A stretch of DNA of 64,000 bases from Rhodospirillaceae bacterium (GTDB taxonomy: Bacteria; Pseudomonadota; Alphaproteobacteria; SHVP01), in NCBI GenBank assembly GCA_002722055.1, contig PBKD01000002.1:139756-203755 (forward strand). The letters run 5' to 3'. Below are positions 32,657-48,174 of the stretch, piece by piece. Numbering within the stretch: the first letter of the stretch is position 1; each line of letters begins with the position of its first letter. Below the pieces are notes generated by a model. The model had not been told where the DNA came from, searched no databases, and was given only the letters and a program-made list of their open reading frames with translations. Position numbers and translations under genes: made by a program.

Positions 32657-33277
32657 ATAATCAGTAAAAATAAAAAATATATATCAGCAATTATTTTAGC
32701 AGCAGGCACTTCCTCTAGAATGGGAGAGAAAAATAAACTTCTACAAAAAATTGATGAAGAAGTCATGATTAGAACTGTTACTAAGGAAGCTTTAAAAAGT
32801 AAAGCTGATGATGTAATTATAATTACTGGTCATGACCAAAAAAATATAATTAAATCTCTAGAAAATTTACCTATTAAATTTGTAAATAATTCAAATTATA
32901 TTAATGGTATTGGAAACTCTATTAGCTCCGGAGTCTATTCATTATCAATAAAAACTGACGGAGTTATAATACTATTGGGAGATATGCCTAGAATAAAGTA
33001 CCAACATATAGATATTCTAATTGACTCTTTTATACCCACTGACAATAAAGCTATTTGTGCCCTAGAATCCGATGGCAAACAAGGCAACCCAATTCTATTT
33101 GGAAAATTTTTCTTTGACCAATTAAAAGCCTTATCAAATGACTATGGTGGTAAAGATATAATTCAAAATAATTTAGATTACCTAATCATAAATTCAATTG
33201 ATGATAATTCTATTTTTTTTGATATAGATACACCTATAGAAATTGATAATTTAATAAGAAATAAATCAAAAGATTAA
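32657..33277 (+). CDS. MobA-like NTP transferase, same frame as the upstream gene, no canonical start ahead of its G-loop
   Basis: IISKNKKYISAIILAAGTSSRMGEKNKLLQ...ILLGDMPRI...GNPILFG; ORF track starts at 32720, after the conserved LAAGxSxRMG motif. Confidence 0.75.
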   Translation: MISKNKKYISAIILAAGTSSRMGEKNKLLQKIDEEVMIRTVTKEALKSKADDVIIITGHDQKNIIKSLENLPIKFVNNSNYINGIGNSISSGVYSLSIKTDGVIILLGDMPRIKYQHIDILIDSFIPTDNKAICALESDGKQGNPILFGKFFFDQLKALSNDYGGKDIIQNNLDYLIINSIDDNSIFFDIDTPIEIDNLIRNKSKD

Positions 33278-33894
33278 TTATTCTTTTTTAAATGATTTTC
33301 AACCTCGAGCCTAGTAACAACATCAGCATAACGCCTACCAACATCTCTTAAATTATCATTATGTGGACCTTCTTCTGCATCTCCAACGCATGATTCTGGT
33401 ACTATAGTTCTATAACCCCATGAAAAACTGTCAATTACACTCGCCCTTACACATCCAGATGTAGTGCAACCAGTAACAATGACCGTATCTATTTGTTGTT
33501 TTGTTAAAAAAGTAACTAGAGGGGTATTAAAAAAAATTGATGGAGCGGGCTTAGAAAAAGCAAAATCATATTTTGGGTTATAAATTCTGCTATCTAGTTC
33601 CATTCCTGGGTGATCTAAAAAAAACTGCTCCCTAACAGCTCCAATTTTCCAGTATGGCATATCTTTATCAGAATCATAACCTGAATAACAACTAGCTACA
33701 GGAATATTTTTACTCCTAGCTACTTCAAGTAACATTGCTGTTTCTTCTACTGCTTTATGAATATGTTCAAACCCACCCAGAGGATATTTTGCCTCCGTAA
33801 ATGCTTTTTGAAAGTCAACTACTACCACAGCTGACCTGTCGCCAAAACCAAAGCCAAAGTCACCATAGGTTGCTGATTGATATGCATCTGACAT
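33274..33894 (-). CDS. Isochorismatase family hydrolase (N-carbamoylsarcosine amidase-like), copy 1
   Basis: AVVVVDFQKAFTE...VIVTGCTTSGCVRASVIDSFSWGYRTIVPESCVGD. Confidence 0.9.
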   Translation of the reverse strand: MSDAYQSATYGDFGFGFGDRSAVVVVDFQKAFTEAKYPLGGFEHIHKAVEETAMLLEVARSKNIPVASCYSGYDSDKDMPYWKIGAVREQFFLDHPGMELDSRIYNPKYDFAFSKPAPSIFFNTPLVTFLTKQQIDTVIVTGCTTSGCVRASVIDSFSWGYRTIVPESCVGDAEEGPHNDNLRDVGRRYADVVTRLEVENHLKKNN

Positions 33895-34079
33895 GGAATT
33901 CCCCTCAAAAATATTTATTAGATATATATTCTATTGCAATGTAAATAAAAAGTGCAAGAATTTGTTATTAAAAATTAAATATATTCAATTTTTTTTGATA
34001 TTTTATTTAATTTTGTTTCCAAAGACATATCTAAATACTAGGATATAAGTAATGTTTTAAAAATAAACTGGAGAATAAA

Positions 34080-35276
34080 ATGAAGGCCCTAGAGGATGTC
34101 GTTATGCTTGACCTCACTCACATGTTATCTGGACCATATGGTGCCATGATATTAACTGATCTAGGTGCAAAATCAATTAAGATTGAACCTCCTGGAAAAG
34201 GTGAAGGCACAAGAGCTTTACAAGCGAAAGATCCCAGAAATTCTTTGCATGGGATGGGATCCTATTATTTGACTCTAAATAGGGGGAAAAAAAGTGTCTG
34301 TATCGACTTAAAAAAAGAGGAAGGTTTAAAGCTTTTTTATCAGATGGTTAAGAAAGCTGATATAGTTTTTAATAATTTTTCTGCTGGGGTTCCTGAAAAA
34401 CTCAAAATTGATTATAAAACTCTTTCAAAGATTAACTCAAGAATCATAACATGCTCAGTCACTGGTTTTGGAGAGACCGGGCCGTATAATAAAAGACCTT
34501 CTTTTGATATGGTCGCACAAGCCACTGGTGGAGGTATGTCAATTACAGGTACGAGAGAAACATCACAATTTAGAGCTGGTATTCCAATAGGTGATTTAGG
34601 TGGAGGGATTTTTGGAGCGATTGGAATTTTAGCTGCACTTCATCAAAGGACTCTAACTAACAGAGGTCAACATGTAGATGTAGCTATGTTAGATGGTCAA
34701 ATATCAATGCTCAATTATATGGCTACCATGTACTTTTTATCTGGAGAGAACCCATATGGTATAGGTAACTCTCATTTTGTACATGTACCTTATAATGTTT
34801 TCGAAACACAAACTCTGTCTGTTGTATTGGCAATAATTACAGATAACTTCTATGAGTCTCTTGCTGATCTTCTTAATGATGACTTTTTGAAACAAGAAAA
34901 ATACAAAACTCAGCCTGGTAGGTTTGTTGATAAGCAAAAAATTGAAGAATGTGTTCAAAATCATTTTAAAAATCAACCAGCTGAATTTTGGCTCGAAAAG
35001 CTTGAAGCTGCAAGAATACCACATGCACCAGTTAACGATTTTGAGCATGCGCTCAAAGATCCACAGGTATTATCTAGAAAAATGGTTGTTGATATTCCTC
35101 ACGTAGATGGGGGATCATTTAAAGCTCCAGGTAACCCTGTTAAACTTGACGACCATTCAGATACCTGGGAGTCTCCACCAAAACTTGGTGAGCATACTGA
35201 TGAAATTTTAAAAGGTTTTTTGGGTAAAACTGACGAAGAAATTAGCAACCTTAGACAAAACAAGATAATTAATTAA
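34080..35276 (+). CDS. CaiB/BaiF (class III) CoA-transferase
   Basis: DLTHMLSGPYGAMILTDLGAKSIKIEPPGKGE..., LNRGKKSVCIDLKKEEG. Confidence 0.93.
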   Translation: MKALEDVVMLDLTHMLSGPYGAMILTDLGAKSIKIEPPGKGEGTRALQAKDPRNSLHGMGSYYLTLNRGKKSVCIDLKKEEGLKLFYQMVKKADIVFNNFSAGVPEKLKIDYKTLSKINSRIITCSVTGFGETGPYNKRPSFDMVAQATGGGMSITGTRETSQFRAGIPIGDLGGGIFGAIGILAALHQRTLTNRGQHVDVAMLDGQISMLNYMATMYFLSGENPYGIGNSHFVHVPYNVFETQTLSVVLAIITDNFYESLADLLNDDFLKQEKYKTQPGRFVDKQKIEECVQNHFKNQPAEFWLEKLEAARIPHAPVNDFEHALKDPQVLSRKMVVDIPHVDGGSFKAPGNPVKLDDHSDTWESPPKLGEHTDEILKGFLGKTDEEISNLRQNKIIN

Positions 35277-35288
35277 AGGGTTAAAGAT

Positions 35289-36221
35289 ATGTCAAAAAGT
35301 ATTTTAATTAATGAAGTTGGACTAAGAGATGGCTTACAAATTCAACCAAAGTTTGTACCTACAAATGGAAAATTGGAAATAGCACTCGGTCTTATTGATG
35401 CTGGTATAAAATCCTTTGAAGCTGCATCATTTGTATCACCAAAAGCTGTACCTCAAATGAGTGATGCTTCTGATCTATTTAAATCACTCCCGAAAAATGA
35501 TAATATATATTACTCTGCACTTTTATTTAATCAAAAAGGATATGAAAGAGCTGTTGAATCAGGAGCTAAAGCAATTGCAATTGCATTAGCTTCTACAGAA
35601 AAAATGAATATGGCAAATATAAGAATGTCATTACCTGATGCTATAAATAACCTTGGTAGATTAATAAAAATGGCTAAGAAAGACGGATTAGATGCAAGAG
35701 CATACATTTCAACAGCACTTGGTTGCCCATATGAAGGTAATGTTCCTACTGAAACAGTTATTAATCTTGCAGATAAGATGTTTGAATTAGGAGCTGATAA
35801 AATTGCTATTGCTGATACTATAGGATCGGGAGGACCGGCACTAGTTGAAGAAGTGGTTGGTAAGGCAGCAAAAAAATTTGGAGCAGAGAATCTAATTGTA
35901 CACTTCCATGATACACGTGCTCTTGGACTAATTAACGCTTGGGTCGCTTTAAAAGTTGGTGTGACTGAATTTGATACATCTCTAGGTGGACTTGGTGGTT
36001 GCCCATTTGCTCCAGGTGCAGCGGGTAATTTAGCTACAGAGGATCTAGCCTTTATGCTTAATGACGCAGGTTACGAAACCGGTATCGATATAGGAAAAAT
36101 ACGAGAAGCAGTTCTAATAGCGGAGCGGTACACCGGACAAAAACTGGGTGGCAGAATTTCTCAATGGTGGATATCACAAGAAAGAAAAAAAGCCGCATCA
36201 GCAGCTTCGGCTGCCGAATAA
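35289..36221 (+). CDS. Hydroxymethylglutaryl-CoA lyase family protein
   Basis: NEVGLRDGLQIQPKFVPTNGKLE, STALGCPYEGNVPTE, FHDTRALGLINAW, GGLGGCPFAPGAAGNLATED. Confidence 0.93.
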   Translation: MSKSILINEVGLRDGLQIQPKFVPTNGKLEIALGLIDAGIKSFEAASFVSPKAVPQMSDASDLFKSLPKNDNIYYSALLFNQKGYERAVESGAKAIAIALASTEKMNMANIRMSLPDAINNLGRLIKMAKKDGLDARAYISTALGCPYEGNVPTETVINLADKMFELGADKIAIADTIGSGGPALVEEVVGKAAKKFGAENLIVHFHDTRALGLINAWVALKVGVTEFDTSLGGLGGCPFAPGAAGNLATEDLAFMLNDAGYETGIDIGKIREAVLIAERYTGQKLGGRISQWWISQERKKAASAASAAE

Positions 36222-36227
36222 AAATAC

Positions 36228-36932
36228 TTATTCGTTATCTTCCCTTAAATCAACTCCAAATTTAGAGAATATTTCTCTAATTTTATCGTAGCATACACCT
36301 ATTCTTATTGTTTCAAAATTACCAAAATCAATAATTGTTGATGATCTTCCCTTATCATTTTCATATTTTGATGTACCACCATCAATAAGAATATCTCCAG
36401 CGTTTAAAACAGGTTTATCTACTTCATCTAATTTATATTTAGAACCTGTCAAAGATGTGTTCGCTGAAGAACCCAAAACTGGCATCTGCATTTGCATTGA
36501 TTGTTTAGTCATTTCATTATGAAACTCACCCGCATTTAGAAGCATATCTAAAGTTCCAATTTTAGTTGAGTTTTTTAGCACCCAGTCATCAACATTTTTA
36601 AACATAGGGTGATCTTTCTTGAAAGGAGCAACAGTTGACATAGGTAGATCATTATCGAAAATCACTGCTTTAATAATATCATGTTTCCATGTATCTATAA
36701 TTTGAATTTCTTTCAAGAGATCATAATTTGAAAACATACCAGATGGCTTTTCAAATGACCTATCTTTACATTTAAATATAGTTTCAATAGATTTTTTTGA
36801 ATTACCGACAATTGCATATGCTACATCCAAAGGGATTATTGCTACACCCTCATTTGCTATAACATCCAGAACTTCTTTTGATTGTTGAACAACATCATCG
36901 GCTACAATTCTAATTTGATTATTTTCACTCAA
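36228..36932 (-). CDS. Sua5/YciO/YrdC (threonylcarbamoyl-AMP synthase)-like protein
   Basis: GVAIIPLDVAYAIVG, FKCKDRSFEKPSGMF, PVLGSSANTSLTG. Confidence 0.75.
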   Translation of the reverse strand: MSENNQIRIVADDVVQQSKEVLDVIANEGVAIIPLDVAYAIVGNSKKSIETIFKCKDRSFEKPSGMFSNYDLLKEIQIIDTWKHDIIKAVIFDNDLPMSTVAPFKKDHPMFKNVDDWVLKNSTKIGTLDMLLNAGEFHNEMTKQSMQMQMPVLGSSANTSLTGSKYKLDEVDKPVLNAGDILIDGGTSKYENDKGRSSTIIDFGNFETIRIGVCYDKIREIFSKFGVDLREDNE

Positions 36933-36949
36933 AATACTAAATCCTTTTT

Positions 36950-37585
36950 TTATTTGTTAAAATTATTCAAGTAATGAATTACTTCTTTTTCACTTACCAC
37001 GTCACCATATTTTGCATTCATATCGAAAAGATTTGCTTTATGAGGTCGCTCGTCTCTATCACCAACGGCTTCTTCGACTATAATTGGCCTAAAACCATAT
37101 GAGACAGTATCAATACATGTCGCTCGAATACAACCAGAAGTTGTTACACCAGTTATTATAAGTGTATCAATATTTGCTGCATTAAGAGAAGAAGCCAAAG
37201 TAGTTCCAAAAAAAGCGCTTGGGTACTGCTTTGATATAACCAACTCATTATCTAATGGTTCTAAGCTCCCACCCCATTTACCAAGATCTCCACCTTCCTC
37301 CATGATATGAAGAGTAGGAACTTTTTCAATAAACATTCCACCATTCCACCCTCCCTTTTGAAAAACAACATTTGTATAGATTATTGGAATATTACTTATT
37401 CTAGCTTGGTCAAGCACTCTAATTGCTGACTCAAGATTTTTCTCTACAGAAGCATAAAGAGGAGATTCAGGATCAAAATATGCTTTGACAAAGTCCACTA
37501 ATATTAACGCTGGATTTTCACCAAATCCTAAACGCTTATTATAGCCCGCACTATCATAATCGTTAGATAAATTATCTTCTTTCAT
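36950..37585 (-). CDS. Isochorismatase family hydrolase (N-carbamoylsarcosine amidase-like), copy 2
   Basis: ALILVDFVKAYFDPESPLY...LIITGVTTSGCIRATCIDTVSYGFRPIIVEEAVGDR. Confidence 0.9.
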   Translation of the reverse strand: MKEDNLSNDYDSAGYNKRLGFGENPALILVDFVKAYFDPESPLYASVEKNLESAIRVLDQARISNIPIIYTNVVFQKGGWNGGMFIEKVPTLHIMEEGGDLGKWGGSLEPLDNELVISKQYPSAFFGTTLASSLNAANIDTLIITGVTTSGCIRATCIDTVSYGFRPIIVEEAVGDRDERPHKANLFDMNAKYGDVVSEKEVIHYLNNFNK

Positions 37586-37624
37586 TTACATTTCCAAGAA
37601 TATTATAATTACACATAAATATAA

Positions 37625-38494
37625 TTATTTCCATTTATTTTCAAAATTCCAAATATCTTCAAAACCCATTAATTTATGCATATCATTACCTTTAAGTAAA
37701 GGAATAGATAATCTAGATGTTGATTTATCATCAAATAATTTTTTATAAACAAATTGCATTGTAGCTGCAGATGCACTGAAAGCAGTTCCAGGAAATATAG
37801 CTAGCGTAAACCCAAGCTCCATTAATTGATTTGAGTCTAGTTTAGGAGTATTACCTGCTTCTGAGAGATTTATCATTATTGGTATATTATTGAAATTTGA
37901 AGTTATCTCTTTCATTTCACTAATTGTTCTATAACCCTCTACAAAGAGCATATCTACACCAGTCTTAATATAAGACTCTGACCTTCTACAAGCATTAGCT
38001 AGCCCTTCCTCAGAAAGACTATCCGTTCGGGCAATTATTAGAAAATTCTCATCTGATCTTGAGTCTAATGCTACTTTAAGCCTACTACACATTTCATCTT
38101 TTGAAACAAGTTGCTTACCTTTTGTGTGACCACACCTTTTTGGATTAACTTGATCCTCAATATGCAAAGCACATGCACCAGATGATTCATAACCCTTAAT
38201 TGTTTGAGCAATATTTATTAAACCACCGTAACCAGTATCTGCATCAGCAATTAGTGGCTTGGATACACCACTAGCGATAACACCAACTCTATTAACCATA
38301 TCTCTATAGGATGCCAAACCTGCATCTGGTAAACCTAGATATGATGCTACGGTTCCATATCCTGTCATATATAAAGCATCAAAATTTAATTTATCTGCTA
38401 TTCTAGCTGAAAGCATATCAAAAACTCCAGGAGCAATGAAGAAATTCTTATCCCGAATTTTTTTTGCTAATTTCTGTCTCTTTAAATTAAACAT
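37625..38494 (-). CDS. Isocitrate lyase / PEP mutase family protein
   Basis: FFIAPGVFDMLSARIADKLNFDALYMTGYG, PLIADADTGYGG, CALHIEDQVNPKRCGHTKGK. Confidence 0.92.
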   Translation of the reverse strand: MFNLKRQKLAKKIRDKNFFIAPGVFDMLSARIADKLNFDALYMTGYGTVASYLGLPDAGLASYRDMVNRVGVIASGVSKPLIADADTGYGGLINIAQTIKGYESSGACALHIEDQVNPKRCGHTKGKQLVSKDEMCSRLKVALDSRSDENFLIIARTDSLSEEGLANACRRSESYIKTGVDMLFVEGYRTISEMKEITSNFNNIPIMINLSEAGNTPKLDSNQLMELGFTLAIFPGTAFSASAATMQFVYKKLFDDKSTSRLSIPLLKGNDMHKLMGFEDIWNFENKWK

Positions 38495-38512
38495 ATATTT
38501 ATCCGAAAAAAA

Positions 38513-38534
38513 ATGGCGCCTGAGATGGCGCCAT
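38513..38534 (-). terminator. Intrinsic terminator, apparently bidirectional, after the hydantoinase B gene
   Basis: ATGGCGCC-TGAGAT-GGCGCCAT 8-bp stem with T tracts on both sides (8 T on the minus strand). Confidence 0.8.
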
Positions 38535-38556
38535 AATTTTTGTTTTTTTAAATAAT

Positions 38557-40464
38557 CTATTCAGCAGCTTCTCTTAATTTCTGAGCCGCAACTTGATGCC
38601 ATTTTTGAAAAACTGGTGCTTTGGGAGGATCAAAACTAGTTTCCTCTTTACACCTAGCTTTTAACTCATCGATTGATGTAAAACCGAAATCAAACAATTT
38701 GACATCACCTCTCTCATCACTGAGTTTTTTTCTAAGCTTTTCAGTTTCATCATTATCTACTGAACCATCCTTATTAAGGACAACACCATATCTTTTAGCA
38801 CCGTCAAATGAAACAAGACCTCTTTCAACGTCTTTTGCAACTTTTTCAGCTGGGCGTTTAAACGGATCACCCCAACCTCCTCCTCCCCAAGTATTGAAGA
38901 AAAGTACATCGTCTTTTTCAACCTTAATATGATCTTTTTTAGCAGGCATTAGTTCTTCAGTTCCATCAGCCCTTCTTAAAATTTTATTACTTCTTCCTCC
39001 AGGGGTACCACCGTTAACTCCCCATGGATATGTCAGCCATCTGTCATCGTGAATTGAAATTTCACCTGGTTCCAAGAAACGATACCCTAGTCTAATTCCG
39101 TTTCCTCCTCTATGAAGGCCAGCACCCCCTGAATCAGCGATAGATTCATATGTATCGATTCTTAAGGGGAAATAAGCTTCAAGAAACTCATTTGGAACAT
39201 TAGTAAAAGATGGCCATAAAGAATGCCCATCTGGTCCATCACCTACAGGTCTACCTGGTATACCACCAAACCCTATTTGATATAATTGAAACCACTCTCC
39301 GTGTTTATCATAACCCGAATACATGAAATGAGGACTATCTGAAAAACCAGCAGCATTAAGTGCATCTGGAGCACCTTGCCCTAACAAACCACCCATTATA
39401 TCAAAAATTCTTCCCAACATATGAGTCCTGGATGATAGTGAAGCAGGCTTCATTGGTTTAAGTATTGTTCCTGCAGGAATTCTTACATCAACCAAGTCAT
39501 AAAAACCATCATTAAACAATATTTGAGGGTCAAAGATATTGATAGTGAATGCACCAAGGAACATCTTAAACATTTCCTCATTTAGCATGAAATTAACTGA
39601 ACTCATAGATTGTGGATCTGTACCTTCAAAATCAAAAACAGCTACTCCATTCTTGTCTCTGTGCAATGTACAAGCGACCTTATAGGGTCCCATACCAATT
39701 CCATCATCACAAATATAATCTTCAAAATAAGCTTTCTTCTCAGGAACAAACATACCAATTATGGCACTCATTGCTCTTTTATTCCTGTCAAGCATCTGCT
39801 CCATTGCTTCAATAAAATAGTCATCTCCAAATCTATCAGCAATTTCGATACACCTTTTTTCAGCAATACGCAAAGCAGCTATTAGAGCATTAAAATCAGC
39901 ACGATTCCATTCAGGTAAACGACAGTTATGAAGAATAAGCTCAAGTATTTCAGAATTTAATTTTCCTTTTTTATAAATCTTAGTAGGAGGAATCATAATT
40001 CCTTCTTCATATATTTGATTTGAATCAACTGGGAGACTTCCAGGTACCTTTCCACCTACATCAGTCATATGACCAAACATAGCAGACCATGCAATTACTC
40101 TATGATCTTTAAATATAGGTTGAAGCACTAGCCAGTCAGGTAAATGACTTATTGCACCTCTGCAGCTGTATGGATCATTAGTTAAGAAAATATCACCTTC
40201 TTCAATGGTACCCTCATAGCCCTCGATAAAACCATAAATAAATGAACCAAACTGTCCAACAACCATTTTTCCATCGTTGTTGGCAATCATCGGGAACTCA
40301 TCGTGTTGCTCTCTTATGCCTGGAGACATAGCAGTTCTGAATAAAACAGCATCCATCTCCCACCTAGCATTTTTTAAAGCATTCTCAATAAGATCAAGAG
40401 TTACTAGGTCTAATTTTACTTTTTTAAACTTTTTGTTATTACCCTGTATAATTTTAGCAGCCAT
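38557..40464 (-). CDS. Hydantoinase B / oxoprolinase family protein
   Basis: MDAVLFRTAMSPGIREQHDEFPMI, GDIFLTNDPYSCRGAISHLPDWLV, ADSGGAGLHRGGNGIRLGYRF. Confidence 0.93.
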   Translation of the reverse strand: MAAKIIQGNNKKFKKVKLDLVTLDLIENALKNARWEMDAVLFRTAMSPGIREQHDEFPMIANNDGKMVVGQFGSFIYGFIEGYEGTIEEGDIFLTNDPYSCRGAISHLPDWLVLQPIFKDHRVIAWSAMFGHMTDVGGKVPGSLPVDSNQIYEEGIMIPPTKIYKKGKLNSEILELILHNCRLPEWNRADFNALIAALRIAEKRCIEIADRFGDDYFIEAMEQMLDRNKRAMSAIIGMFVPEKKAYFEDYICDDGIGMGPYKVACTLHRDKNGVAVFDFEGTDPQSMSSVNFMLNEEMFKMFLGAFTINIFDPQILFNDGFYDLVDVRIPAGTILKPMKPASLSSRTHMLGRIFDIMGGLLGQGAPDALNAAGFSDSPHFMYSGYDKHGEWFQLYQIGFGGIPGRPVGDGPDGHSLWPSFTNVPNEFLEAYFPLRIDTYESIADSGGAGLHRGGNGIRLGYRFLEPGEISIHDDRWLTYPWGVNGGTPGGRSNKILRRADGTEELMPAKKDHIKVEKDDVLFFNTWGGGGWGDPFKRPAEKVAKDVERGLVSFDGAKRYGVVLNKDGSVDNDETEKLRKKLSDERGDVKLFDFGFTSIDELKARCKEETSFDPPKAPVFQKWHQVAAQKLREAAE

Positions 40465-40480
40465 TTATCAATACCCCCAC

Positions 40481-42742
40481 TTATCGCTTACGAGATTTAG
40501 ATTTTTTAGATTTCTTGGACGCAACCTTACGTTTAGGCGCCTTTTTCTTTGCAACTTTCTTCTTTGCAATTTTCTTCTTAGCTACTTTTTTTGCAACCTT
40601 ACGTTTAGGTGCCTTTTTCTTTGCAGCTTTTCTTTTAGATGTTTTACTTTTAGAAGTTCGGCTTGAAGATGTTGATTTACCCGAAGATTTAGAAGGGTTA
40701 ATCAAAATATTACCAAATCCATCAACTTTACCAACATGGTCAGGTAAAATTAATGTTGTAGAATCCATTTCAGTAACAATAGCAGGACCAGGAATAGAAT
40801 GACCAGATTTTAACAATGAACGATCATATATTTTTGCTTTCCTATTTTTTCCATCAACAAATACATTCGTGGATTCAATAACAGCTTCTTTAGGCTCACC
40901 AGAACCTTTGCCAACCCTCTCAGCTTTTACCTTTGTTGGTTTACCTTGCTGAATAGCTCTTAAATTAACTAATTCCTGATCATGATCCAAAGCAAATGTG
41001 TACATTTGCTCATGCATCTTATCAAATTCTTTAGCAACAGCAGATAGACCACCTTTTGCAAATTTCTTTGCATCTGTTTCAATAGTAAGAACTAAGCCTT
41101 GCCCATGATAACGAACATCAATTTCATATGTAGTTGTTTGATCTTTCCTACTAACACCTTCTGCGTCAAGTTCTTTAGCTGAACGTTCCGCTAATTCTTT
41201 AAGAATTTTATTAACTTCTTTATCTGATGTTTGTGGGAAAGTCCTAATAAAAGACCGTGAAGCTTCGTTTCTTACACGAGTAGTAGCATCACCGTATGCA
41301 CACAAAACTCCTGGGCCAGGCGGAATTATCACAGGCCAAGAACCTGTAAGTTTCCCCAACGCATTTGCATGTAAAGGACCAGCACCACCAAAAGCTATAA
41401 GAGCAAAATCCCTAGGGTCATGACCTTGTTCGACTGAAACCAACCTTAAAGCACCAAACATATTTTCATTAACAATATTGTATATACCCTCTGCTGCGTT
41501 CATAACCTTTAGATCCATTGCAGAAGCGATTTTCTCTACTGATTTTTTTGCTAGGTTAGAATCTATAACCATATCACCGCCAAGCTTGGAAGACGATGGA
41601 AGATAACCAAGAGCGACATTAGCGTCAGTCACAGTAGGTTCTTCACCACCTTTAGCATATGCAGCAGGGCCAGGGACAGCTCCAGCAGATTGAGGACCTA
41701 CCCTCAAAGACTTAGTCAACTCTGGTGAGTATGCTATCGATCCACCTCCTGCACCACAGGTTCTAACATCTATTGAGGATGCACGAACAGTCACATCAGC
41801 AACTCTTGTTTCTCTTCTTTTCAAAGGTGAACTATTTTGAACCAAGGCTACATCAGTTGACGTACCACCCATATCAAAGGTAAGAAGGTTTTTATAACCT
41901 GCTTTTTCTGCAATCCAGATAGCGCCAGCAACACCCCCAGCAGGTCCTGACATCAAAAGGTTCACAGGAGCATTTTCTGCAGACTCAACAGAGGAAAGAC
42001 CTCCATCTGACCTTAGAACATGCAACTGAACATCTTTCATCCTTTTCTTTGTTTCTTTATGAAGATTACGCATATATTTTGAAACTACTGGTCTAATATA
42101 GGAATTAACAACTGTAGTTTCGGTTCTCTCATACTCTTGCATTTCAGGAATAACTTCAGAGGAGATAGAGATAGGGATATCAGTAAAAATCTTTTGAGCT
42201 AATTTTCTTGCCTTAACCTCGTGAGCACCATTAGCAAAAGAATTAATAAAAGAAATTGTAAGAGCTTCTATATCATACTTGCCTTTAAGCTTTTTAAGTT
42301 TCTTTTCTAAGTCATCAAGGTCAATAGGAGAGACTATATCTCCTTTAGTTCCTATTCTTTCCTCTGCCTCAATAGTACATTCTAGAGGAGCCAAAGGATC
42401 AGTTTTGTTAAATATAACCCAACCACCAAGACCACCAGGAACAAAAGATCTTGCTATTTGAAGAACCTGACCGAAACCTTTTGTAGTTATAAGTCCAACT
42501 TTTGCACCAGCATTGGTTAAAACAGTATTAGTTGCAACCGTCGTTCCATGCATAACATTTGTAATTTCTTTTGGATCCACACCTGCTTCAGCACAAACTT
42601 TTTCAATTCCATTTAAAACTCCACGCGATGAGTCATCTGGTGTAGAAGGAACTTTAGCAGTTTTGGTTTCACCAGTTTTTTCATCGACTAGAAGTAAGTC
42701 AGTAAAAGTACCCCCGACATCAACCCCTAAACGATAGGACAT
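40481..42742 (-). CDS. Hydantoinase A / oxoprolinase family protein with Lys/Arg-rich C-terminal extension
   Basis: RLGVDVGGTFTDLLLVDEKTGE, HGTTVATNTVLTNAGAKVGLITTKGF, LLTFDMGGTSTDVALV; C-terminal KKKAPKRKVAKK repeats. Confidence 0.93.
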   Translation of the reverse strand: MSYRLGVDVGGTFTDLLLVDEKTGETKTAKVPSTPDDSSRGVLNGIEKVCAEAGVDPKEITNVMHGTTVATNTVLTNAGAKVGLITTKGFGQVLQIARSFVPGGLGGWVIFNKTDPLAPLECTIEAEERIGTKGDIVSPIDLDDLEKKLKKLKGKYDIEALTISFINSFANGAHEVKARKLAQKIFTDIPISISSEVIPEMQEYERTETTVVNSYIRPVVSKYMRNLHKETKKRMKDVQLHVLRSDGGLSSVESAENAPVNLLMSGPAGGVAGAIWIAEKAGYKNLLTFDMGGTSTDVALVQNSSPLKRRETRVADVTVRASSIDVRTCGAGGGSIAYSPELTKSLRVGPQSAGAVPGPAAYAKGGEEPTVTDANVALGYLPSSSKLGGDMVIDSNLAKKSVEKIASAMDLKVMNAAEGIYNIVNENMFGALRLVSVEQGHDPRDFALIAFGGAGPLHANALGKLTGSWPVIIPPGPGVLCAYGDATTRVRNEASRSFIRTFPQTSDKEVNKILKELAERSAKELDAEGVSRKDQTTTYEIDVRYHGQGLVLTIETDAKKFAKGGLSAVAKEFDKMHEQMYTFALDHDQELVNLRAIQQGKPTKVKAERVGKGSGEPKEAVIESTNVFVDGKNRKAKIYDRSLLKSGHSIPGPAIVTEMDSTTLILPDHVGKVDGFGNILINPSKSSGKSTSSSRTSKSKTSKRKAAKKKAPKRKVAKKVAKKKIAKKKVAKKKAPKRKVASKKSKKSKSRKR
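40521..40625. repeat. 33-bp direct repeat pair (72 nt period) encoding the Lys-rich tail
   Basis: gcaaccttacgtttagg(c/t)gcctttttctttgca at 40521-40553 and 40593-40625. Confidence 0.85.
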
Positions 42743-43019
42743 TTAAGATTCTCCCTAGAAAATAATATTTTTAAAAGTATACCACTTGTTAATAGTGGAT
42801 TACCAATTTCATATACTATCCCGTATGATAGAGTTAACTGTCAACAAGAGTCATGACTAAAATTATAGTTTTTTCAATTTTTTTGGAATATTAAAGCTAA
42901 TTTAATGGATTATTCAAAAATCTGCAAGATTTTAGCAACTTTTGAGGGTCAAAATACAGTTACCTAAATCTATTTATTTGAAAAATAAATATTACGAATC
43001 AACAGAAAAAGTCTTTCTG

Positions 43020-43901
43020 CTAATGCATGGATTTAGTATAATTTTCATTTTCGTCAGTTGAAGATCCAGTTGCCGCAGAAAAAATTCCTCGTTTCCTCTC
43101 CAAAATATAAACCACACCAAATGCAAGCACTATAATTAGCAGAGAAAAAATTGTAGTGAGAGTGCCTACTGCATATAAGTCCGGTCGGGCTGCATTTGCA
43201 GTAGCTGAAACCATGTCTACTGGAAGTGTATTAGCATCACCTGCAACAAGACTTGTTCTAGCAAATTCATCATAAGATAATGTAAAACCAAACAGGCCTA
43301 TTGCAATTAAGCCAGGGAGTACAATTGGGAAAATTACAAACCTAAGTCTTTGCCAACTAGTAGCCCCAAGATCTGTAGCTGCTTCCTCAATTGATGGGTC
43401 AAATCTCGCAAAAATTGCCAACATAATTAATACACCAAATGGAAGAGACCAAGTGAGATGGGCACCCAAACCTCCGGAATACCAAGAAGATAGCAACTCT
43501 AAATTTGCAAAACCGAGACCTATCCCAAGACTGATTAGAAAAGGGGGTGCTATTAGACTACCAATTACTCCATAGAAAACTAGATTCGATCCCTTAAAAC
43601 CCCTTCTATATGCAAGACCAGCCATGAACGAAATTATAATTGTAATTATCATTACAATAATCCCTAATATAAATGACCTTAACCAAGGCAATCTAAAGTC
43701 AAATAAATAATCTGGGAGAATAACCTGTTTAAACCAATAAAGGGAAAAGCCTTTCATAGGGAAAGTAAGCCCTCCCTCAGGTCCCTGAAATGCAAGAAAG
43801 CCTATAGTTATAAGTGGACCATATAAAAATATAACAAAGAGCAAAAAAATTGCCCCTCTGATTTTCATGGGTGTAGTACTATTTTGCCAAAAGCTAATCA
43901 T
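43020..43901 (-). CDS. Spermidine/putrescine-type ABC transporter permease (PotC-like)
   Basis: EEAATDLGATSWQRLRFVIFPIVLPGLIAIGLFGFTLSYDEF. Confidence 0.9.
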   Translation of the reverse strand: MISFWQNSTTPMKIRGAIFLLFVIFLYGPLITIGFLAFQGPEGGLTFPMKGFSLYWFKQVILPDYLFDFRLPWLRSFILGIIVMIITIIISFMAGLAYRRGFKGSNLVFYGVIGSLIAPPFLISLGIGLGFANLELLSSWYSGGLGAHLTWSLPFGVLIMLAIFARFDPSIEEAATDLGATSWQRLRFVIFPIVLPGLIAIGLFGFTLSYDEFARTSLVAGDANTLPVDMVSATANAARPDLYAVGTLTTIFSLLIIVLAFGVVYILERKRGIFSAATGSSTDENENYTKSMH

Positions 43902-43922
43902 ATCTTTCTTTCAATTATTCAG

Positions 43923-44822
43923 TTACATTTGTTTTCTTATATCAACAACTCTCATAAGACCGCCTACAAACAGCAATAGTAAAGCCAACAAAATGACTGA
44001 TTGGGCCGCTGCTATGGGATAAAAACCATTGAAAAAAGCCACAGAGACACTATTCGCTAAACTTCCAGATTGAGCTCCACTTAAAATTCTTATAGCTGTA
44101 AAATCTGTTGCAACTAAAGCCACTATAAAAATAGTTCCAATAATTATACCAGGTTTACTCATTGGTATAATAATAAATCTCAAAATTTGAAAACCTGAGG
44201 CTCCCTGATCTTTAGCTGCTTCAATTAAATTTGGATTAATTCTTGCCATAACATTAAATAAAGGCGCAACCATAAAAAGAGTAAACATATGAATATAAGA
44301 TACTATTACTGCAAATTCAGAAAATAGAAAGAATTGGACAGGCTCATCTACAATACCAATGTTAATAAGAAATGAATTGAGGATTCCTTTAGAACCTAAA
44401 AAAGGTATCCAAGATGTCATTCTTACTACACCTGATGTCCAAAAAGGAACAACTGTTAAAAGGAAGAAAAAAACTTTAACTCTGAATGAAATTAAATCAA
44501 AAACAAGAAAATATGATATAATGAAACCTAAAACTAAAGTTATTACCCAAGTAATAATAAATATTCTTGCAGTATGCCAAAGATTTAATAAAGACGACCA
44601 TTCAGAAAAAAAATCAATATAACTTGTAAAGGTAAAACCTGGTCTAGTAACAAAACCATCAAATATAAACACACTATACATAAGTATAATAGCTACAGGA
44701 ACAACTGCAAATATAAATAAAACAATAACTAAAGGTGAGGCCTGAAAATAGGCCGAGTATTTTTTAAAAATCTCGGATATTTTACTAGTTTCAGATTCTT
44801 GATTTTGGGTCTGTATAGACAT
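43923..44822 (-). CDS. Spermidine/putrescine-type ABC transporter permease (PotB-like)
   Basis: EAAKDQGASGFQILRFIIIPMSKPGIIIGTIFIVALVATDFTA. Confidence 0.9.
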   Translation of the reverse strand: MSIQTQNQESETSKISEIFKKYSAYFQASPLVIVLFIFAVVPVAIILMYSVFIFDGFVTRPGFTFTSYIDFFSEWSSLLNLWHTARIFIITWVITLVLGFIISYFLVFDLISFRVKVFFFLLTVVPFWTSGVVRMTSWIPFLGSKGILNSFLINIGIVDEPVQFFLFSEFAVIVSYIHMFTLFMVAPLFNVMARINPNLIEAAKDQGASGFQILRFIIIPMSKPGIIIGTIFIVALVATDFTAIRILSGAQSGSLANSVSVAFFNGFYPIAAAQSVILLALLLLFVGGLMRVVDIRKQM

Positions 44823-44861
44823 AAATCACCATAAATACAAATAAGATATATTACTCATAAA

Positions 44862-44898
44862 CAAAAAAGAGGAGTGTGGCAACACACTCCCCTAATTT
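44862..44898 (-). terminator. Intrinsic terminator between the substrate-binding protein and PotB-like genes
   Basis: Minus strand GGAGTGTG-TTGC-CACACTCC followed by TCTTTTTT; T tract also on the plus side. Confidence 0.8.
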
Positions 44899-44912
44899 TT
44901 TTTACAAAAAAA

Positions 44913-46220
44913 CTAAGCAGCTTGAAATGCAGACCATTTCTTAACAAGATACGCAAATTCATCGTACTCAGAGTTCCAAACAGCAATATTGCCCATTCTG
45001 TTCTTATATGAACCACCGTCACGAACATCACCTGGTTTAGCCAAAGGACCACCAAATGGACTAGTAATACCATCTTTAGTAGGTTTACCGTCAATCCAAT
45101 AAGCATACTCATCAGCTGACATAAACTTTTTAGTACGTTCTGGAGTTGGAGCATAGTAACCTTGTCTTCCAAACAATGCACCAGGAAATCCAGCCCATTG
45201 CCAGTTAAGAAGTTCGTACGCAGCATCCAATTTCTTACCTTTTAGATGACCAGCTAAAACGTTACCAATAGTCCAACCACGATATCCTTCTTTAAGATCA
45301 GCATAGACAACGTCTATCCCTTGTGTTTGAACTAAAGTAACAGCAGGAGACCACATGGATTGAATCACAGCTTCACCATTAGTCATGAAGTTAACTGACT
45401 CCATAAAGGTTGTCCAAAAAGCTCTAAAGTGACCTTGCTTTTTTAGATCATTAAGAATAACAAAAGTTTTATCAATTTCTTCTTTTGTCATATTTCCTTT
45501 ATTGCCGTACTTTATGTCTCCTCTAGCTTCGATAGCCATAGCTAAATCCATCATGCAAATATCAGGGAATGCTTGAAGGCAAACTTTACCTTTCCATTTT
45601 GGATTCAACATTTCAGCCCAAGTTTCTATTTCATAACCAACTAAATCTCTTCTATAACCAAGAGTATCTGCATTATGAACTGTTGGCATAAAAGTCAAAT
45701 AGTCACTACCACCAGCTTTAGCAAACTTATTAGCTTTTTTCTTGCCTGGGTTATAAAGCACCTTAGCTGGATGCTGGCCATCACCTATCTTAGCATCTGA
45801 CCAAGTTTTCATTGAACTTTTGTACATACCAATGCACTCATCCCAATGCTTTAACCTTTTGATTTCAATTGGTTGCAATTTCGCAGCTGGAGAACCCCAA
45901 ATTCTTCTCATTTGGTTTCCAGCAGGCTCAGCAATATCAAAAGACTTTGGTTGAGTTAAGATCTTATTTTGAATTCCATCAAAACCAAGAGCTGTCATCT
46001 CAATTTTTATACCTAAATCTTTTTCAGCTTGCTTTTGCCATGGCTCAATGTGAGAAACACCTGAACCAACGCTTCTTAGAACTACTTTCTCCTGTGCCCA
46101 TAATGTTGGAAAACCAGATATTGCACCTGTACCAACAGCAGCACCTGCAGCCGCTGCAGTGCCTTTTAGCACAGAACGTCGACTGACTTTTGAATTAACT
46201 TTCTTAGTAATTTCACTCAT
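44913..46220 (-). CDS. Spermidine/putrescine-type ABC substrate-binding protein (PotD-like), Tat-type signal
   Basis: SRRSVLKGTAAAAGAAVGTGAISG signal; long periplasmic-binding ORF adjacent to PotBC-like permeases; start taken as ATG 46220. Confidence 0.85.
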   Translation of the reverse strand: MSEITKKVNSKVSRRSVLKGTAAAAGAAVGTGAISGFPTLWAQEKVVLRSVGSGVSHIEPWQKQAEKDLGIKIEMTALGFDGIQNKILTQPKSFDIAEPAGNQMRRIWGSPAAKLQPIEIKRLKHWDECIGMYKSSMKTWSDAKIGDGQHPAKVLYNPGKKKANKFAKAGGSDYLTFMPTVHNADTLGYRRDLVGYEIETWAEMLNPKWKGKVCLQAFPDICMMDLAMAIEARGDIKYGNKGNMTKEEIDKTFVILNDLKKQGHFRAFWTTFMESVNFMTNGEAVIQSMWSPAVTLVQTQGIDVVYADLKEGYRGWTIGNVLAGHLKGKKLDAAYELLNWQWAGFPGALFGRQGYYAPTPERTKKFMSADEYAYWIDGKPTKDGITSPFGGPLAKPGDVRDGGSYKNRMGNIAVWNSEYDEFAYLVKKWSAFQAA

Positions 46221-46299
46221 CCCATAATAACCTTTTCTATAGTTTCTCGAGAAAAACATATCTAAACCATAAGGGCCCTGTGGCCCAGATATGCTGGCC

Positions 46300-46322
46300 T
46301 TCTAAAAACTTGATTTTTAGAA
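46300..46322. repeat. Perfect hairpin TTCTAAAAA-CTTGA-TTTTTAGAA in the divergent intergenic region
   Basis: 9-bp perfect arms, 5-nt loop, read directly. Confidence 0.85.
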
Positions 46323-46380
46323 AATCCAAGGTTTATTGTTAGCATTTATTATGATCATGCAAGATTTATTTACACAAAAA

Positions 46381-47028
46381 ATGATTTTTTTCAGAAAAAA
46401 GTTAGGTTTTTCATCAAAAATAACCTTCATTTTTATATTTTTGATAATCATTTTGCCAAATGTTTGTTTAGGTAAAACCGATAATAATCAAAATAAACCT
46501 ATAAGAATTGAGAGATTTTTAAATATATCTGAAATAATAAACCTTGAAAATATATTCTGGGATATGTCAGTAGATAAAATAATTAAAAATATTAAAAGCT
46601 CAAAATATAATATGTCAGATGGGTTTAAAATTGGCTATTGCTATTTTAGATACTCTATTAATATTAAAATAAAAAATGAACCATGGGAGCTTTGGTTATG
46701 TGAAAATCCAGAAAATGGAAAATTATATGGAATTTCAATAGAAAAAGGATTCAATGGGGTTTTTTTTGAAAAAAATAAAAGCAAATCAAATTTATTTTCA
46801 AATTTTTTAAATAATTTAAAAAATATTTATGGACCTCCAGAAAAGGTTTGGAAAGAATGTCATAATACACGTTGGAATTTTACTGAACAATATAGTTGGT
46901 ACTTTGCTAAAACAACTATATCTTTTGTAATTCGAGATATTCCCTTGAAACAAATGGCAATTCATTACCATAAGCCGACAGGAATAAAGGATTTCGGACC
47001 AGGAATCTGTTCTGCACAACCAGAATAA
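46381..47028 (+). CDS. Hypothetical exported protein
   Basis: Signal-like MIFFRKKLGFSSKITFIFIFLIIILPNVCLG; no recognised family; start uncertain (46336 or 46381). Confidence 0.55.
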   Translation: MIFFRKKLGFSSKITFIFIFLIIILPNVCLGKTDNNQNKPIRIERFLNISEIINLENIFWDMSVDKIIKNIKSSKYNMSDGFKIGYCYFRYSINIKIKNEPWELWLCENPENGKLYGISIEKGFNGVFFEKNKSKSNLFSNFLNNLKNIYGPPEKVWKECHNTRWNFTEQYSWYFAKTTISFVIRDIPLKQMAIHYHKPTGIKDFGPGICSAQPE

Positions 47029-47079
47029 AAATAATATATCAAATTGATTATTTTTAGCCTTAAGATTTGTTAGGAATAT

Positions 47080-48174
47080 TTATTTTTTTAGAAGATGTAA
47101 ATCCTTAGCTTCCCAGCTTGCTAAAATTTTATCACCCATATCAACTGGATCTTTGAAATAATCTTTTTCATCAGAGTTTGCTACAATTAGTTCACCATTT
47201 TCTTTAGCCATAGTTACTTTAACCCAAGTACCCTGATATTCAATAGAGTGTACTATCCCTGATTGATGATTTATTGCATCAGGCTTACCATCATTTCGAG
47301 AAATACTCACTTTATCCCTTCTAACAGAAAAACTAACATTTGAGCCCTCTTGAAGATTATTTGATAGAATTTTATACTTACATCCGTCGCTCCCTGTGAC
47401 CTCAGCATCCTTTTCGGATATTTTATTTATATCACCTTTGAATACATTCCAACCTCCCATAAACTCAGCTACATAAGAGGTCTCAGGTGTTGTATAAATC
47501 TCTTGTGCGGTACCTGCCTGATCAATTACTCCCTGGTCCATTACAACAATCATATCTGCAAGAGCCAATGCCTCTGGTTGAGTGTGAGTAACATGAATAA
47601 ATGTTATTCCAATTTCTTTTTGTAATCTTCGTAATTCTTCACGCATTTGTAGACGTAAATACTCGTCTAGTGCAGATAAAGGTTCATCTAGAAGCAAAAC
47701 TTTAGGATTAGTGATTAAGGACCTAGCTAAGGCAACCCTTTGCTGTTGGCCTCCTGACAATTGGGCAGGTAGCCTGTCAGCAAGGTGAGTCATTTTAACT
47801 GTCTCTAAAACTTCCATAGCACTGTTTCTTCGCTCATCTTTTTCTATACCCTTAACCCTAAGGCTAAAAGCAACATTTTCTGCTACAGTAAGATGAGGAA
47901 AAAGAGCGTAACTTTGAAACATCATAGAAGTGCCTCTTTGCACTGGCTCTAAACCAAAAGTTTGTTCACCACCGATTAAAACCTCACCAGATGTAGGCTC
48001 CTCATGACCAGCAATCATCCTTAGTATTGTAGTTTTTCCGCAACCAGATGGACCAATCATACAACAATAGGCACCGTCAGGGATAGTTAAACTAACATCA
48101 TTTACTGCTTGAGTTTCACCAAATGATTTTACTAGGCTTTTAAGTTCAACTTGTCCATTGCCAGATGTACTCAT
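47080..48174 (-). CDS. Spermidine/putrescine-type ABC transporter ATP-binding protein (PotA-like)
   Basis: GPSGCGKTTILRMIAG, LSGGQQQRVALARSL, LLLDEPLSALD; TOBE-like C-terminus. Confidence 0.92.
   Translation of the reverse strand: MSTSGNGQVELKSLVKSFGETQAVNDVSLTIPDGAYCCMIGPSGCGKTTILRMIAGHEEPTSGEVLIGGEQTFGLEPVQRGTSMMFQSYALFPHLTVAENVAFSLRVKGIEKDERRNSAMEVLETVKMTHLADRLPAQLSGGQQQRVALARSLITNPKVLLLDEPLSALDEYLRLQMREELRRLQKEIGITFIHVTHTQPEALALADMIVVMDQGVIDQAGTAQEIYTTPETSYVAEFMGGWNVFKGDINKISEKDAEVTGSDGCKYKILSNNLQEGSNVSFSVRRDKVSISRNDGKPDAINHQSGIVHSIEYQGTWVKVTMAKENGELIVANSDEKDYFKDPVDMGDKILASWEAKDLHLLKK

Follow-up and report, generated by a model that had tools for sequence, protein, structure and literature searches.

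The hydantoinase A (HyuA) subunit encoded in the window, the 64,000-nucleotide stretch of DNA that was analysed, carries a basic C-terminal tail that may tether the HyuAB enzyme to an intracellular polyanion, with DNA or RNA placed before polyphosphate. Both the binding and the choice of polyanion are judged from sequence comparison, and the proposal is regarded as having about an even chance of being correct. The features of the locus are as follows.

40481–42742, minus strand: HyuA open reading frame, 753 aa, with the stop codon at 40481–40483
40688–42742, minus strand: HyuA folded core, residues 1–685, hydantoinase A / oxoprolinase, CapA-like ATP-binding subunit (Pfam, NCBIfam, PDB, Foldseek)
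40484–40687, minus strand: basic C-terminal tail, predicted to be disordered, HyuA residues 686–753 (sequence, predicted disorder, congeneric homologues)
40593–40625, minus strand: 33-bp direct repeat, copy 1, coding for around AKKKAPKRKVA
40521–40553, minus strand: 33-bp direct repeat, copy 2, overlapping a gap in the congeneric tails
40484–40504, minus strand: last seven tail codons, KSKSRKR, base-identical in three congeneric species (alignment)
40465–40480, minus strand: hyuA–hyuB spacer, 16 nt, with a G-rich Shine-Dalgarno-like stretch (sequence)
38557–40464, minus strand: HyuB (hydantoinase B), partner subunit, 635 aa (Pfam PF02538, PDB matches)
40408–40440, minus strand: HyuB N-terminal basic patch NNKKFKKVKLD, residues 9–19

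The enzyme core and its locus

The folded core of HyuA was assigned using Pfam, which placed the Hydant_A_N, Hydantoinase_A and Hydant_A_C domains in order across residues 4–669 with scores of 165.5, 297.5 and 58 bits, each above its cut-off. The AlphaFold2 model was mostly confident up to residue 685, and the final strand of the core stopped at residue 683. Searches with PDB and Foldseek matched HyuA to subunits of N-methylhydantoinase, caprolactamase and acetone/acetophenone carboxylase, the best solved relatives being 7hk5/9h03, 6yra, 5l9w and 5m45. The best NCBIfam match of HyuA was CapA at 512 bits and HyuB scored 189 bits, both below the cut-off of 1000 that applies to each of the caprolactamase CapAB equivalogs. 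CapAB, N-methylhydantoinase and 5-oxoprolinase share with the window pair the three HyuA Pfam domains and a HyuB, and hyuB was found 16 nt downstream of hyuA as the partner gene of the family. The pair is predicted to be an ATP-dependent ring-opening enzyme of the lactam/hydantoin type, the enzyme part being unremarkable, and is probably assembled as (AB)2 by homology with caprolactamase, which is an (AB)2 tetramer (PMC8453981).

The surroundings of hyuAB are operon-like and include genes for a polyamine-type ABC transporter and for PEP-mutase/isocitrate-lyase-like and isochorismatase-like proteins. The region 33274–48174 of the window contains CoA-transferase family III, HMG-CoA-lyase-like and isochorismatase-like genes together with HyuAB, a setting common to the gammaproteobacterial clade described below. 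The last gene of the run (36228–36932) encodes a Sua5/YrdC-like protein with a score of 37.5 bits, far below the cut-off of 123.2 bits.

Composition of the tail and its internal repeat

The sequence-only reading had described a Lys/Arg-rich tail of about 65 residues behind a complete oxoprolinase domain, and this was confirmed, with 68 residues following the end of the core at residue 685 and the reading frame ending in the sequence that had been quoted. The tail is rich in Lys, Arg, Ala and Ser and contains 35 Lys/Arg residues and no Asp or Glu. HyuA was predicted by AlphaFold2 to be disordered only past residue 685, the mean pLDDT of the tail being about 30–34. A valyl-tRNA synthetase model also matched the tail, which was taken as a match of composition. 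Among 813 open reading frames of at least 150 aa surrounding relatives of the window hyuA, a strongly basic 30-residue end was found in 16, nine of these being HyuA and one HyuB.

The 33-bp direct repeat with a 72-nt period that had been noted is present, the two copies being identical at 32 of 33 bases, a level reached in just 3 of 300 shuffles of the tail's own synonymous codons. Copy 2 seems to have arisen recently and in frame in the window species, because its position falls in a gap of two congeneric tails. Recent repeat expansion, which had been offered as an origin for the tail, applies to the second 33-bp copy only and not to the tail itself, which predates the genus and is present in two clades that are not related.

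Distribution and origins of the tail

One of the eight HyuA proteins of the window genome has a tail and the seven others are without; the closest paralogue (58%) has no tail, and the N-terminus of its HyuB is acidic. About 80 relatives of HyuA and some further loci were inspected directly. Among about 84 close relatives, and on a tree of 104 HyuA, basic tails occur at two separate places. The first is an alphaproteobacterial clade containing the window protein and those of L040, L042, L041 and L011, with tails of about 40–68 residues, the nearest relatives of which (L060, L043, L084 and L050) are untailed. The second is a Steroidobacteraceae-like gammaproteobacterial clade in which 27 of 29 rows are tailed, the tails ranging from 11 to 61 residues and many being short, at 11–17 aa with 5–7 Lys/Arg. 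Losses of the tail inside this clade are likely. A tree in which all tailed rows were forced into one group was rejected (p-AU 4e-16), and HyuA tails appear to have been gained at least twice.

A second draw of loci by class and phylum, comprising some 36 further relatives, gave no additional tailed HyuA. The sequence-only reading had named two findings that would count against it, an assembly artefact and equivalent tails on most HyuA. The former is excluded because other genomes have independent tails of their own, and the latter does not hold, the seven paralogues, the 36 further relatives and nearly all HyuA that were read being untailed. No description of a hydantoinase with such a tail was found in the open-access literature.

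In the gammaproteobacterial tailed loci a small protein with no Pfam match carries a Lys/Arg-rich N-terminal tail (L085:1727-2191, L058:2057-2494 and L064:2071-2526), and versions of this protein next to untailed HyuA (L052, L099) are without it. A neighbouring methyltransferase (L085:2204-3427) has a basic C-terminal tail.

Resemblance to H1-like and polyphosphate-binding proteins

Nucleoid and granule proteins are known to carry H1-like tails. In the congeneric genome G001 a 103-residue protein (L164:1324-1635) consists almost wholly of KAAKKKAPKRK-type repeats and has no Pfam match, and contig C7 of the window genome opens with the end of the same H1-like gene (C7:1-138, L121). This contig starts inside the gene, where the repeat probably broke the assembly. 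The 13-residue stretch KRKAAKKKAPKRK is common to the tail and the H1-like protein, compared with a maximum of 11 residues in 5000 shuffles of the tail, and is absent from the tails of other genera. A copying of tail DNA from the H1-like gene was not adopted, the best 33-mers agreeing at 29–30 of 33 bases, roughly the level estimated to follow from a common peptide and codon usage; the shared stretch itself is compatible with copying or convergence alike.

The window tail has the Lys-rich, acid-poor and predicted-disordered character of an H1-like C-terminal region, and the body that carries it is HyuA rather than an AlgP- or phasin-type N-terminal body. In AlgP and PhaF of Pseudomonas a C-terminal domain rich in Lys, Ala and Pro is likewise attached to a body of unrelated kind. 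However, the window tail has 68 residues compared to 154 in AlgP/PhaF, its body is a catabolic enzyme subunit, and neither a KPAA repeat nor a granule link is known for it. The spacing of polyphosphate granules depends on the KPAA tail of AlgP, a fragment of which binds DNA, and the AlgP and PhaF domains have been proposed as connectors between granule and chromosome (PMC9239181). An H1-like C-terminal extension on a protein of other function is also found in mosquito RPS6, where the resemblance to H1 was interpreted as convergence (PMC548281), although RPS6 is a eukaryotic ribosomal protein, unlike HyuA. Among the relatives of HyuA, the model of caprolactamase CapA stops at residue 696 with a C-terminal barrel, and a basic tail is not described (PMC8453981).

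The EngA and SrmB proteins of P. aeruginosa bind polyphosphate via lysine-rich regions with 9 lysines per 20 residues, including four consecutive, and two proteins with 5 and 7 lysines gave no polyphosphate binding (PMC12077175). The window tail reaches 12 lysines per 20 residues and exceeds the terminal lysine density of EngA and SrmB, two examples of lysine polyphosphate modification (PMC12077175), which are ribosome/RNA proteins unlike HyuA. This density, which passes the level of about 9 per 20, and the polyphosphate kinase 1 encoded by the window organism would be expected if the tail sensed polyphosphate instead of tethering the enzyme to nucleic acid, with polyphosphate binding under starvation moving or regulating the enzyme. 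However, ppk1 was found in 12 of 12 genomes tested, tailed or untailed, and was discarded as a discriminator, most gammaproteobacterial tails have just 1–7 lysines per 20 residues, and the longest lysine run in the window tail is three, leaving the sensor as a possible but unlikely role. No PPK2 was detected in the window genome.

Congeneric tails and selection

Tails of similar length but diverged sequence were found in two congeneric species, represented by L009/L040 (core 95% identical) and by L120. The alignment of the congeneric tails contains in-frame indels of 15 and 24 nt, and the charge is retained. Substitution rates were estimated for the tails and for the end of the core, the dN/dS figures being rough as values of dS near or above 1 are saturated: the window tail compared with L040 gave a dN of 0.18, a dS of 1.09 and a dN/dS of about 0.17, the remaining two tail pairs gave a dN of 0.37 with saturated dS and a dN of 0.22 with a dS of 1.82, and the last 295 core residues compared with L120 gave a dN of 0.04, a dS of 1.4 to 2.1 and a dN/dS of about 0.02–0.03. 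The tail therefore appears to be looser than the core, yet not neutral. Runs of six A were rarer in the tails of three species than genome codon use predicts (P 0.002, 0.001 and 0.02), a deficit that was mostly gone once codons were shuffled within the tail. All comparisons in the analysis are of sequences, largely from metagenome-assembled genomes.

A tolerated and functionless by-product, formed as A-rich lysine codons expanded by slippage or duplication at a permissive C-terminus, would show features that are seen here, including the recent in-frame 33-bp duplication, fast sequence turnover, tail lengths from 11 to 68 residues and untailed closest relatives. It would not readily give a tail dN well below dS, charge that is retained across genera, HyuB ends that are basic in the same lineages or a shortage of A-runs, though the last is mostly lost on shuffling. 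A non-functional tail is accordingly disfavoured and is considered improbable.

The HyuB partner and the probable geometry of the complex

The basic patch of HyuB is a short N-terminal stretch ahead of the first conserved motif. A strongly basic, NKKxFKKxKVD-like N-terminus was found in 32 of 32 tailed loci and in 5 of 51 untailed loci, the N-terminal net charge being +4 to +6 in the tailed loci compared to a mean of -0.7 in the untailed loci. Four of the five untailed loci with a patch are close relatives of the window HyuA and one is a member of the gammaproteobacterial clade. Once descent was corrected for, about three contrasts were informative; they agreed in direction but did not reach significance (p 0.25), and with two lineages carrying the tail the link between HyuA tail and HyuB patch is suggestive, not proven.

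The charge of the middle of HyuB is about equal across the groups and the shift is confined to the ends, the C-terminus being basic too in many members of the gammaproteobacterial clade. In L080, L082 and L086 the partner subunit has a basic extension of its own, HyuB ending in AAKKLAAKKLATKSVATKKKRRKAA-like tails. Both tailed lineages also have a more basic HyuA core, at about -0.3 to +1.2 per 100 residues compared to -3.6. In the alphaproteobacterial tailed group the linked CaiB and isochorismatase have remained acidic; in the gammaproteobacterial clade the neighbouring proteins share part of the charge shift. The difference in whole-protein charge was not accepted as proof, being weakened by these neighbours and by the untailed paralogue of the same genome, the core of which also has a net charge of -1. 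Convergence on basic residues at individual sites of the HyuA core was also set aside: 15 columns were shared (2.6 expected), but control clades overlapped with the tailed ones as well, and among charge-variable columns the excess dropped to 13 compared to 8.4 (P 0.03).

The relative position of the two termini was deduced from a fused N-methylhydantoinase chain, in which residues 3–687 match window HyuA 4–681 and residues 704–1261 match HyuB 22–565. The short linker from 687 to 704 places the C-terminal end of HyuA next to the N-terminal end of HyuB, and by this homology the tail and the patch should emerge side by side. Exposure of the HyuA C-terminus is plausible because the purification of CapA relied on a His tag at its C-terminus (PMC8453981).

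The conserved CoA-transferase family III, HMG-CoA-lyase-like and isochorismatase-like neighbours suggest a multi-enzyme pathway, in which the tail could dock an acidic protein partner or organise the HyuAB assembly or a pathway cluster with no polyanion involved. An acidic partner is disfavoured because HyuB became basic, its ends turning more basic and not acidic; moreover the neighbours included no protein that was both conserved and strongly acidic, and further gammaproteobacterial neighbours gain basic tails instead, making docking very improbable. Translation control as the main function of the conserved tail end, with the last codons and the spacer forming part of the hyuB initiation region, would suit the seven base-identical codons that adjoin the hyuB start and ribosome-binding region, but it accounts for only about 20 of about 200 bases, other tailed genera vary at several bases there, and it is given almost no weight.

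Proposed role of the tail

In the preferred reading, tethering to a polyanion, the disordered 68-residue tail would exit the complex beside the basic N-terminus of HyuB, and each AB unit would bear a concentrated positive cluster, giving two per tetramer. The tail and the HyuB patch would together hold HyuAB on an intracellular polyanion by loose, multivalent binding, as proposed for AlgP, PhaF and H1-like proteins. Nucleoid DNA or RNA would be the first candidate because of the H1-like resemblance, and polyphosphate the second because the lysine density of the tail exceeds that of known polyphosphate binders. The tethering proposal is strengthened by the basic HyuB termini and by the H1-like protein of the genus with its shared motif; the gammaproteobacterial tails of 11–17 aa are short and therefore weak for tethering. 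The sequence-only reading, which had suggested attachment to nucleic acid, polyphosphate or membrane, is partly supported, attachment to nucleic acid or polyphosphate being the best interpretation and the membrane having no specific support.

A broader and more speculative possibility, considered unlikely, is that an H1-like tail and a basic partner terminus, each acquired separately by two lineages of proteobacteria, bring HyuAB to the nucleoid or else to granules of polyphosphate, and that the basic tails of the gammaproteobacterial cluster proteins would reflect a polyanion-scaffolded pathway. The same catabolic enzyme was found to be tailed twice, and in both cases the adjoining end of its partner is altered to match. 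With the natural pairs of tailed and untailed enzymes as controls, this offers a clean way to ask whether metabolic enzymes of bacteria are positioned on DNA, RNA or polyphosphate.
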